DNA from: Acholeplasmataceae bacterium
Lineage (GTDB): Bacteria; Bacillota_I; Bacilli_A; Acholeplasmatales; Acholeplasmataceae
NCBI GenBank assembly: GCA_021108415.1
Contig: JAIOQX010000002.1
Location: 434,001 to 498,000, forward strand
Direction of reading: 5' to 3'
Length of the DNA: 64,000 nt
Shown here: piece after piece, positions 7,408-40,060 of the stretch
Position numbering within the stretch: position 1 is the stretch's first letter
How the letters are laid out: each line of letters opens with the position of its first letter
Notes under the pieces: generated by a model
What the model saw: the letters and a program-made list of their open reading frames with translations, nothing else
Told to the model about the DNA's origin: nothing
The model's database searches: none
Made by a program: the position numbers and the translations under genes

Positions 7408-7928
7408 TTTTCAAGAAAATCACGACACTCATCAAAAAAATTAAATAAACAGTCTTCAAAAATTTTGTTTTTTGCTTCAAATTTTATACCTAAAAAATTA
7501 TTTGAGTTAGAATAATTTACTGACATTAGCAGTTCCTTCCATGCCAATATCACTTCAGCCATTTCAGAATATAAATTTTTTGGTATTCTGTAAATTGTTT
7601 TATGAAAATGTTCTTTTCTCAACAATATGATCACATCAACTAATTCATCAATAGATTTGATAAATTGTTTATTACTTTCTTCGGTTGCCGGATTAATCAA
7701 TTTATAGTCTGAAACAATATTAATGAGTTCACGATGAACCAGTAAAAATGAATCTGTTATAACTTCGATCAGTTCTTGTGCAATTTTCTTCTTTTCTTTA
7801 GTATCAATACGATCATTTCGTATCTTATCTGAAAACATGAGTACTAACGGTGAAATAGTAGCCCCAAGAAGAACTGCTGTTGCAGTAATAATTGAAGTAA
7901 TAGCAGTATCAGTAAGCATGATATACAT
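7404..7928 (-). CDS. Membrane-anchored protein of unknown function, element cargo candidate
   Basis: 174 aa from ATG 7928, chosen over the adjacent TTG at 7931 because GGGGG sits 8 bases upstream of the ATG. One N-terminal helix (about residues 8-30) is followed by a soluble, helical, charged domain with no recognised motif. The gene converges on the 92-aa gene with a 4-base overlap. It lies between the integrase and tRNA-Arg, the usual position for lysogenic cargo such as exclusion or defence genes. This role is a guess from position. Confidence 0.55.
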   Translation of the reverse strand: MYIMLTDTAITSIITATAVLLGATISPLVLMFSDKIRNDRIDTKEKKKIAQELIEVITDSFLLVHRELINIVSDYKLINPATEESNKQFIKSIDELVDVIILLRKEHFHKTIYRIPKNLYSEMAEVILAWKELLMSVNYSNSNNFLGIKFEAKNKIFEDCLFNFFDECRDFLEN

Positions 7929-35978: not shown

Positions 35979-36010
35979 TTCCACGTAGAAGTTTGAATTT
36001 CTACGTGGAA
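35979..36010. repeat. 12-bp inverted repeat upstream of the ABC exporter operon
   Basis: TTCCACGTAGAA (35979-35990) and TTCTACGTGGAA (35999-36010) are perfect complements across 8 bases. On the minus strand a TATAAT follows within a few bases, so the repeat covers the expected -35 region. No T-run follows on the minus strand, making an operator more likely than a terminator for the preceding operon. Confidence 0.6.
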
Positions 36011-36025
36011 TCTGCTATTTTTTTA

Positions 36026-36412
36026 TTATTCTACGATGATTTTAACAATATCTCCGTCACCTGATTCAATATTAACCAATTCTCCATCAACACCTTGACT
36101 GATCATTTCTAAGATTGCATCAATATCAATATCCGCATCTCCAATATTTGATTTGAATTTTGAAGTTTTTAATAATTTTGAAAATTCAACTGGAATTTGG
36201 ATTCTAACTTTATCACCATCATTAGAATCAACTAACACTTTTAACATCTTAAATGGTGCTTTCTTTTTGTTTACAACTATTTCTTGTTCTACTTCTTGTT
36301 CATTATGTCCTAGAGCTGCTAATAATTTTTCAGCTTCATCTGCAGTAATCACTTTATTTGATAATAATTCTAATATTTTCATTCTTTCTTCTTTAACTTG
36401 ATCTTTTGACAT
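36026..36412 (-). CDS. Protein with SHOCT/YvlB-N-like helical hairpin and acidic beta domain
   Basis: 128 aa from ATG 36412 with AGAGG 8 bases upstream. Residues 10-35 (ERMKILELLSNKVITADEAE and following) form the helical hairpin seen at the N-terminus of YvlB-like proteins. A beta-rich middle region (FKMLKVLVDSNDGDKVRIQIP) and an acidic C-terminus (GDADIDIDAILEMISQGVDG) follow. The same hairpin motif appears in both other main genes of this operon. The role is unknown; related proteins are linked to envelope-stress regulation. Confidence 0.75.
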   Translation of the reverse strand: MSKDQVKEERMKILELLSNKVITADEAEKLLAALGHNEQEVEQEIVVNKKKAPFKMLKVLVDSNDGDKVRIQIPVEFSKLLKTSKFKSNIGDADIDIDAILEMISQGVDGELVNIESGDGDIVKIIVE

Positions 36413-36439
36413 ATCTTTCACCTCTTATTTTCTTTTTTA

Positions 36440-36568
36440 TTATTCATGCATCATAAGATTATTTATATCTTGTATAGAATATCTTATGCTATTTACTGTT
36501 GTTAAACATGTACATACGTGTTTTTGTTTATGATTGTTTTCGCTAAGTTTTTTAAATAAACGATTCAT
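36440..36568 (-). CDS. Possible 42-aa small protein between DUF2089 gene and YvlB-N-like gene
   Basis: Begins MNRLFKKLSENNHKQKH, contains a CTC cysteine pair near residues 19-21 and ends NNLMMHE. It starts 10 bases after the DUF2089-like stop with AGGTGA about 5 bases before the ATG, and its direction and spacing fit the operon. The short length means it could be chance. No family is recognised. Confidence 0.45.
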   Translation of the reverse strand: MNRLFKKLSENNHKQKHVCTCLTTVNSIRYSIQDINNLMMHE

Positions 36569-36578
36569 CAAACTCACC

Positions 36579-37007
36579 TTACTTCCCTTTTTTTAACAAT
36601 TCTACTGCATCTAAAACTGAAATTTCTTTATTTGCGATTTTTTGTAGGATGCTCGCTTTTGATTCTCTTTGAGTTTCATCATCTTTTGTTTCTTTACTAT
36701 TTTGCAAATCTTCTTGGTCATTATCTGGTGTATATCCTAATCCAACAATGACATCATCTAACATTTTCTTAACAGTTGGATAACTAATATTTAACTCTTT
36801 TTCAATTGCTTTAATATTTCCTCTGTTTTTAACAAACACTTCAATGAAATATAGTTTTTCTGTTTCTAAGTAATTAAACTTAGATAATGTAAAACTTCCT
36901 TCTATCACTGTATCACAATGATCACATGCTAATTTAGTAACTTTCAAATCATGTTTACACACTGGGCAAACTGAGATGACAGGGTTTAGTTTATTTCTTT
37001 GGCTCAT
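36579..37007 (-). CDS. DUF2089-family zinc-ribbon/HTH protein
   Basis: 142 aa. A zinc ribbon (CPVCKHDLKVTKLACDHCD at about residues 14-32) is followed by a helix-turn-helix region (EKELNISYPTVKKMLDDVI near residue 70). The acidic linker leads to a C-terminal hairpin, KASILQKIANKEISVLDAVELL. This is the DUF2089 architecture, usually regarded as a putative DNA-binding regulator. It lies 13 bases after the first gene of the operon. Its C-terminal motif matches the N-terminal motifs of the flanking genes, suggesting they oligomerise or share a partner. Confidence 0.85.
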   Translation of the reverse strand: MSQRNKLNPVISVCPVCKHDLKVTKLACDHCDTVIEGSFTLSKFNYLETEKLYFIEVFVKNRGNIKAIEKELNISYPTVKKMLDDVIVGLGYTPDNDQEDLQNSKETKDDETQRESKASILQKIANKEISVLDAVELLKKGK

Positions 37008-37020
37008 TTTATTTCTCCTT

Positions 37021-37374
37021 TTATATTGTTTTTATTAGTATATGGGTCTTATCTTCTGCTATAACCTCAATAAATGTACCTTTTACCATTGCCATGTCTA
37101 TTAAATCTTTGATTGACATGGGTATTTCATCATCAATTGGTTTATCAAGTCTTTTCCTTAAAAAGAATTTAAGAAAAGAAATCGGTATAGGAAATAAGAA
37201 TAATGTATTTACAAATGCACTTACTCCTTTACTCTCTGGAATCTTAATTTTAAGCTTAACGAACCTAGCTCTTCTTACTTTTCTTTTTTTAATCTTTGGA
37301 TATAGCAGTTCATATGCTTTTTTTGGATCAATCTCATTTGATGATAATTCATTGAGAACTTCATATTTCGTCAT
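37021..37374 (-). CDS. Small protein with YvlB-N-like hairpin, amphipathic segment
   Basis: 117 aa. It starts with the helical hairpin EVLNELSSNEIDPKKAYELL, then a strongly basic stretch (KIKKRKVRRARFVKLKIKIP), a hydrophobic segment (FVNTLFLFPIPISFLKFFL) that could touch the membrane, and a C-terminal beta region. It is the first gene of the operon, behind a perfect consensus promoter and AAGGAGG. I do not recognise a named family. The basic plus hydrophobic core would suit a membrane-surface or nucleic-acid contact. Confidence 0.75.
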   Translation of the reverse strand: MTKYEVLNELSSNEIDPKKAYELLYPKIKKRKVRRARFVKLKIKIPESKGVSAFVNTLFLFPIPISFLKFFLRKRLDKPIDDEIPMSIKDLIDMAMVKGTFIEVIAEDKTHILIKTI

Positions 37375-37414
37375 ATTTAAGCTATCCTCCTTAATATTTT
37401 TAACTTACACATTG

Positions 37415-37443
37415 ATTATATTAAACTTTTTATCAAATGTCAA
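37415..37443 (-). promoter_or_regulatory. Consensus SigA promoter of the DUF2089 operon
   Basis: Minus-strand TTGACA (37438-37443), 17-base spacer, TATAAT (37415-37420). Exact consensus, so the operon is probably strongly expressed unless repressed. Confidence 0.88.
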
Positions 37444-37563
37444 GCGTTTTTATGAAAAAAAGTTAATAAAGTTAATTTTGATATTAATTTTATTAATTTC
37501 TTCCTTAAATAATTTTAGTTTTTGCGTTATAATAGGTATATATAATATAGAAAGGAAACTTAT

Positions 37564-39450: not shown

Positions 39451-39714
39451 TTACTTATATATATCCTTTCGATGACCATATTCGATTACTAATACAATGA
39501 GTTCATCATCAAGAATATTAACAAGAATTCTATAATTACCTACACGATAACGCCATATGTCTTTCTTATCATGAGATAATCCTTTACCTTTTTCTCGCGG
39601 ATTATTGGTATTTTCTAGATTTTTTTCAATCCAAGCGATAATCATTCTAGCGATTTGTTTATCAGTTTTTTTTAATGATTTTATTGCTTTTTCAGAAAAT
39701 TTCACTCTAAACAT
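39451..39714 (-). CDS. RelE-family mRNA interferase toxin
   Basis: 87 aa from ATG 39714, two bases after the antitoxin stop. The RelE fold segments FSEKAIKSLKKTDKQIARM, the core IWRYRVGNYRILV (about residues 52-64) and the C-terminal EYGHRKDIYK with basic and Tyr residues are present; these tail residues take part in ribosome-dependent mRNA cleavage in the family. It is neutralised by the RelB-like protein encoded just upstream. Confidence 0.9.
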   Translation of the reverse strand: MFRVKFSEKAIKSLKKTDKQIARMIIAWIEKNLENTNNPREKGKGLSHDKKDIWRYRVGNYRILVNILDDELIVLVIEYGHRKDIYK

Positions 39715-39716
39715 AA

Positions 39717-39935
39717 TCAAAAATCCAGAATTTTCTTAGCTTCTTCAATCGTATAAGTTTTCGGGTTTTCTTCATATTCTTTATAAGCTTGTTCATATAA
39801 GAAAATATCAAACTCGTCTTCTATCTTTGAAAGAATCGCTTGTCTCATCACTTCAGATATTGTAGTGCCATTTAATTCTGCATATTTTTTAATAAGTTTT
39901 GATTCCTTCTCGCTAACTCTAATTGAAATAGACAT
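39717..39935 (-). CDS. RelB-like ribbon-helix-helix antitoxin
   Basis: 72 aa from ATG 39935 (GAGGTG 6 bases upstream). Residues 1-45 form a ribbon-helix-helix DNA-binding domain (SISIRVSEKESKLIKKYAEL, then TTISEVMRQAI). The C-terminal tail (EENPKTYTIEEAKKILDF) is the toxin-wrapping segment. Order and coupling with the toxin gene are standard for type II pairs, where the complex represses its own promoter. Confidence 0.88.
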   Translation of the reverse strand: MSISIRVSEKESKLIKKYAELNGTTISEVMRQAILSKIEDEFDIFLYEQAYKEYEENPKTYTIEEAKKILDF

Positions 39936-40060
39936 AACTTTCACCTCGTATTACATTGTACCACAAAAATACATTTTTGCAATACTTTGTCTCACATTTG
40001 CATAATCAGCATAGGATTTTTATCAAATTTAGGGTTGTCTAAGTACCTGATGAAATTATA

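Follow-up and report, generated by a model that had tools for sequence, protein, structure and literature searches.

The question raised by this locus is whether three neighbouring genes, whose products had been described as otherwise different proteins sharing one short helical hairpin, form a single regulatory unit, and what such a unit would respond to. We analysed a window of 64,000 nucleotides (the whole stretch of contig JAIOQX010000002.1 from position 434,001 to 498,000) in an Acholeplasmataceae genome of 1.78 Mb, together with relatives spanning the Acholeplasmatales and Izemoplasmatales. Counted from the promoter, the order on the minus strand is A, B, a short ORF C and D. The three peptides in question were found where the preliminary description had placed them, at the N-terminus of D, the C-terminus of B and the N-terminus of A, all encoded on the minus strand. 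The features of the locus are the following.

37463–37497, minus strand: upstream array ATTAATAAAATTAATATCAAAATTAACTTTATTAA, exact, with RTYRA half-sites at 0, 9, 21 and 30 bp; it begins 54 bp upstream of the start of the −35 box
37438–37443, minus strand: −35 box TTGACA, conserved in relatives
37415–37420, minus strand: −10 box TATAAT after a 17-bp spacer, conserved in relatives
37391–37425, minus strand: second array with one mismatch; it begins 18 bp after the −35 start, overlaps the −10 box and has the register found in relatives
37021–37374, minus strand: gene A, 117 aa; SHOCT-like hairpin plus a basic, hydrophobic beta-alpha-alpha-alpha-beta-beta domain; paralogue of D
37297–37374, minus strand: N-terminal SHOCT-like hairpin of A, VLNELSSNEIDPKKAYELL, from profile comparison; model helices 3–11 and 17–24
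36579–37007, minus strand: gene B, 142 aa; DUF2089 regulator with zinc ribbon, HTH and SHOCT-like hairpin
36876–36968, minus strand: zinc ribbon of B, PF22747 (Pfam, E 1.5e-15)
36729–36869, minus strand: DUF2089 HTH of B, PF09862 (Pfam, E 7.8e-22)
36585–36665, minus strand: C-terminal SHOCT-like hairpin of B, ILQKIANKEISVLDAVELL, from profile comparison
36440–36577, minus strand: short ORF C, 42–45 aa, in the interval between B and D; kept within the genus only
36026–36421, minus strand: gene D, 131 aa from GTG or 128 aa from the ATG at 36412; SHOCT-like hairpin plus an acidic beta-beta-alpha-beta-beta domain
36299–36391, minus strand: N-terminal SHOCT-like domain of D, PF22746 (Pfam, E 2.6e-9)
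35979–36010, minus strand: terminator-like hairpin 3′ of D, from the sequence

Across the genus ORF C has a counterpart of like length and ending; other genera have an unrelated ORF or none. The operon is neighboured by a peptidase (M20 family) and ABC exporters. A ParE-type toxin gene (PF05016) lies beside a ribbon-helix-helix gene (DUF6290) at 39451–39944 (minus strand) and probably forms a toxin–antitoxin pair with it. A search of the whole window with Rfam reported a tRNA only.

A shared hairpin and a paralogous pair

Pfam assigns to B both the zinc ribbon (57.4 bits, gathering cut-off 27.6) and the HTH (77.1 bits, cut-off 33.4), and to D the SHOCT-like family PF22746 (36.8 bits, cut-off 27), whose name itself refers to DUF2089 C-termini. 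It reports the hairpin in neither B nor A of the window, where A has no Pfam match of any kind, and an A protein from a relative (L174) reaches 16.6 bits with PF22746, under the cut-off. Family alignments of A, B and D were built from relatives and the isolated hairpins compared profile against profile. The results obtained bear out a hairpin common to all three proteins: B–D gave 96.5% (score 38), by which the C-terminus of B is SHOCT-like, B–A gave 95.5% (score 31) and A–D 93.4% (score 26), far above the best score of 10 among 24 column-shuffled profiles per pair. In a rank test, the A profile placed D and B of the window above all 2682 other ORFs, and the B profile did so for D; the window's A scored weakly with the D profile and was missed by the B profile, so that single sequences alone are insufficient for the homology of the hairpins. 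As A is this weak in single-sequence scoring, the homology of its hairpin rests on the family profiles.

A coincidental or convergent origin of this short helical motif, with no functional meaning attached, is very improbable. With about 27 residues the hairpin is short, and in the window A itself obtains poor scores from the D and B profiles, but scores of 26–38 against a shuffled maximum of 10 rule out chance similarity, Pfam recognises the domain in D independently, and the homology of A and D extends over their full length. This last result contradicts the description of the three as otherwise different: A and D are whole-length paralogues (96.6% over 105 columns). Their C-terminal domains alone gave 91.7% and a score of 37, versus a shuffled maximum of 14, in profile-profile comparison, and the D profile retrieves A genes directly in three genomes.

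The two paralogues carry opposite charges, with a median net charge of +11 in A and −7 in D. A is hydrophobic and basic, with Pro-rich hydrophobic helices; D is acidic, not hydrophobic, and has no membrane segment. The AlphaFold monomer model of A is confident (pLDDT 87.6) and that of D moderately so (pLDDT 72.8, pTM 0.40). Comparison of both with PDB sequences gave no convincing relative, and a Foldseek structure search gave none at E 0.001. Among the structures searched with VIA-align, the best match of D was the SPAK/OSR1 CCT domain (Z 5.5, rmsd 3.1, 74 aligned residues) and the best of A had Z 2.7 (rmsd 4.8, 69 aligned). A known fold was not adopted for A or D, neither Foldseek nor these VIA-align scores giving a trusted match.

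Linkage, fusions and exchanges of A, B and D

We compiled 79 named loci with B from the Acholeplasmatales and Izemoplasmatales, of which 76 had enough flank on the A side and 78 on the D side. A lies directly upstream of B in 74 of the 76 and D directly downstream in 77 of the 78; as the loci were found through B and the genomes are related, these fractions express stable linkage and not independent events. The adjacency is near-universal, as expected from the claim of a conserved operon, and it rules out that independent genes were thrown together here. No A was recognised at L120, L121 and L131. The loss of A in A. laidlawii (L099) is only apparent: the sequence is there and an ATG, GTG or TTG start codon is missing. 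Family genomes that lack B also lack D, bar one weak partial match.

Independent occurrence of the genes in relatives had been named as what would speak against a complex. None was found within the family; at the level of the class, B and D do recombine with other partners, B with HAAS-Toastrack genes and D with Xre, which fits modular partners. In another family of the order, a HAAS (PF22564)–Toastrack (PF13349) gene follows B in the place of D. The A–B–D operon itself is without Toastrack; the genome has two Toastrack matches, both outside it. Eight loci of class-level relatives carry a fusion of an Xre HTH (PF01381) with the D domain (at one of the eight, HTH and D are separate ORFs), followed by a lone A/D-like gene of 80 residues, whose profile gives 95% to D and 86% to A. 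Neither the Xre–D fusion nor this neighbour has a SHOCT-like domain at these loci. From the Xre–D loci it appears that the A/D domain pair serves a DNA-binding protein, there by fusion and here presumably through the hairpins.

A, in turn, forms a fusion protein with a VanZ-family membrane domain (PF04892) at 11 loci and adjoins a VanZ gene at 10 more, and ABC or MFS exporters are often found 3′ of the operon in relatives. The adjacency, the Xre–D fusion with its lone neighbour, the VanZ–A fusions and the opposite charges are several independent lines that suggest joint action of A, B and D. In loci L003–L008, from another family of the same order, the B homologues are without the zinc-ribbon cysteines and retain the HTH and the C-terminal hairpin.

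The promoter and the RTYRA array

The promoter at 37443–37415 is a perfect consensus one, as had been noticed (TTGACA-17-TATAAT, 12 of 12 positions), and most relatives keep it together with a conserved stretch 3′ of the −10 box. On either side lies an array of AT-rich RTYRA half-sites, paired at 9 bp, with the pairs spaced 21 bp (z 28–36 against dinucleotide shuffles, values inflated by relatedness). The array was defined on the promoters of relatives first and then sought in other sets, allowing one mismatch; since the genomes surveyed are related, the counts as well as the z-scores overstate independence. Upstream of B in other families of the order, mostly those with HAAS-Toastrack, it was present at 6 of 12 loci and missing at the other 6. 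A further set of 14 loci with B, taken for the most part from other families or classes and including a Fusobacteriales MAG that has the array, was searched over 800 nt; 11 had the array and 3 lacked it at this threshold. At the same tolerance none of 11 B-less D genes, searched over 400 nt, had it, nor did any of 58 intergenic gaps not adjoining B; among random 150-nt stretches it occurred in 2 of 400. As the array is present with B across families and classes and absent at B-less D genes, it follows B, and not A or D. It is probably the operator of DUF2089 proteins and the binding site of the module itself.

Within the family, the promoter plus downstream element was found in 29 of 38 genomes with B, one of them (G008) counted through a two-mismatch match in a glycerol leader, and in 0 of 23 without B, a set that includes strongly reduced genomes. 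Leaders of glycerol operons that match the promoter pattern were set aside as false positives without arrays. Such promoters, of glycerol-type operons at L260–L263 and L265, have a TATAATCAAAGTGTAA-like sequence, after which comes a conserved leader.

In the whole genome, the only non-coding copy of the exact four-site array is the one in this operon; a second exact match is chance-like and lies in less AT-rich, coding-looking sequence. With a single mismatch, 46 matches were obtained versus 33 for a reversed-pattern control, mostly in coding-looking sequence. At 7627–7661 of the window there is a 35-base coding-looking stretch with an identical copy 13 kb upstream in the same contig (G000:C1:428686), which suggests that a gene or element was duplicated.

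Array-bearing promoters were also met at other genes. In several genomes of relatives, promoters with 12 or 11 of 12 consensus positions and arrays in the same register precede a gene of about 150 residues with a lipoprotein-like signal, and in two (G006 and G019) a promoter of the same quality precedes an ABC exporter gene. A wider regulon was not recovered in the genome studied: the sole further perfect −10 box plus downstream element is at G000:C2:196357 (L234:2858). This element follows a gene that resembles the one preceding the array-bearing ABC exporter of G006 and G019, and its surroundings include mobile-element-like genes, among them an integrase; an exporter of the G006/G019 type was not found in the 45 kb after it.

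A putative membrane-linked switch and its known relatives

The host, as a member of the Acholeplasmataceae, is a mollicute, and a cell wall is presumably absent. The "envelope stress" put forward for this locus can here only mean membrane stress, and such a role is itself conjectural. Beyond the computed domain identities, A–D paralogy, linkage, fusions and conserved cis-element that follows B, we infer B to be the binder, repression rather than activation to be the outcome, contacts between the proteins to be direct and membrane stress to be the signal. The reading towards which we lean, if only slightly, is that the operon is a membrane-linked, autoregulated transcription switch in which B binds the arrays and A and D dock on B and modulate it. 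B would bind the tandem RTYRA arrays on both sides of the promoter and would regulate its own operon and a few others; the overlap of one array with the −10 box makes repression the most likely mode. Through their SHOCT-like hairpins, A and D may dock on B, possibly also on one another, and modulate the DNA binding of B. An experimental assay of a SHOCT domain gave no self-oligomerisation (PMC3581485), which makes hetero-docking or a common partner likelier than simple homo-oligomers. A would be the membrane end, with its hydrophobic Pro-rich helices, its strongly basic character and its VanZ fusions in relatives, and D its acidic, soluble counterpart; a disturbed membrane would alter the A–D–B assembly, and the targets of B would be released or activated.

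Two other arrangements were weighed against this switch. B might control the operon through the array while A and D are membrane effectors, stabilising the membrane or aiding the neighbouring ABC and MFS exporters, the hairpins bringing A, B and D to a common membrane partner. The frequent exporters behind the operon, the VanZ-fused, hydrophobic and basic A and the lipoprotein and ABC exporter genes behind array-bearing promoters elsewhere all agree with such effectors, as does the membrane anchoring predicted for SHOCT-like domains by Ravi et al. (PMC11237479), who propose a common membrane partner for them. However, D is acidic and soluble and has no membrane segment, and an Xre–D fusion with a lone A/D-like neighbour resembles the ligand or partner domain of a regulator; we consider the effector arrangement rather unlikely. 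Alternatively, another regulator might bind the array, with B acting elsewhere and the linkage of A, B and D reflecting shared expression only. All these genomes do encode further DNA-binding proteins, but the array tracks B across families and classes despite the change of neighbours, and B-less D genes do not have it upstream; we regard this last arrangement as improbable.

The switch reading admits a wider form, which we hold tentatively and rate somewhat below an even chance. A and D would be unrecognised paired domains, one for the membrane end and one for the soluble end, that control HTH proteins either by Xre–D fusion or by SHOCT-like docking of B, A and D; all DUF2089 proteins would recognise one conserved tandem array; and the whole would be a one-component, autoregulated membrane-stress switch of Mollicutes with a small regulon.

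With respect to known systems, the locus is less novel than the word "undescribed" had implied. DUF2089 proteins of the ZnR-HTH-SHOCT-like type, the architecture of B, are already placed in envelope-stress neighbourhoods by Ravi et al. (2024, mSystems, PMC11237479), who tie the family to envelope-stress systems through Toastrack neighbourhoods and predict, as here, an operonic link to membrane proteins and a transcriptional output. As seen above, B is followed by HAAS-Toastrack in relatives of the same order, whereas in the present operon, which is without Toastrack, the partners are the paralogous SHOCT-like A and D. The passages of PMC11237479 consulted have no mention of the A/D pair, of A–VanZ or Xre–D fusions, or of a promoter-flanking array or binding site, and a literature search on the DUF2089 family met neither a binding site nor a signal already described. 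The best reading is that A–B–D is one variant among the DUF2089/SHOCT/Toastrack systems that Ravi et al. predicted.

The Lia/Psp systems of Firmicutes (LiaFSR, PspA/PspC) are alike in outline, in that membrane-proximal partners are proposed to control a transcription factor of a small membrane-related regulon; the operon studied here, in contrast, is without PspA, PspC, LiaF, LiaH, LiaRS or two-component genes, and a DUF2089 protein of the one-component type serves as its regulator. SHOCT itself (PF09851; Eberhardt et al., 2013, PMC3581485) is likewise short, bi-helical and found at the termini of unrelated partner proteins, whereas here it is the SHOCT-like variant PF22746, N-terminal in A and D. 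If the proposed switch is true, it would be a membrane-sensing regulator for wall-less bacteria, where the cell-wall-based logic of Lia cannot apply. For the widespread DUF2089 regulator family, the conserved array is a concrete, testable candidate operator and the A/D pair are probable partners, and the A–B–D module offers a specific test of the function of SHOCT-like domains.

A short DUF2089 protein also stands beside membrane proteins and an ABC exporter in the clusters of the leaderless bacteriocin bawcin (PMC10707071), although that protein has 98 aa and the A/D pair is not listed in the cluster. This bacteriocin-cluster gene and the array-bearing promoters point to a possible function directed toward the membrane or its attackers.
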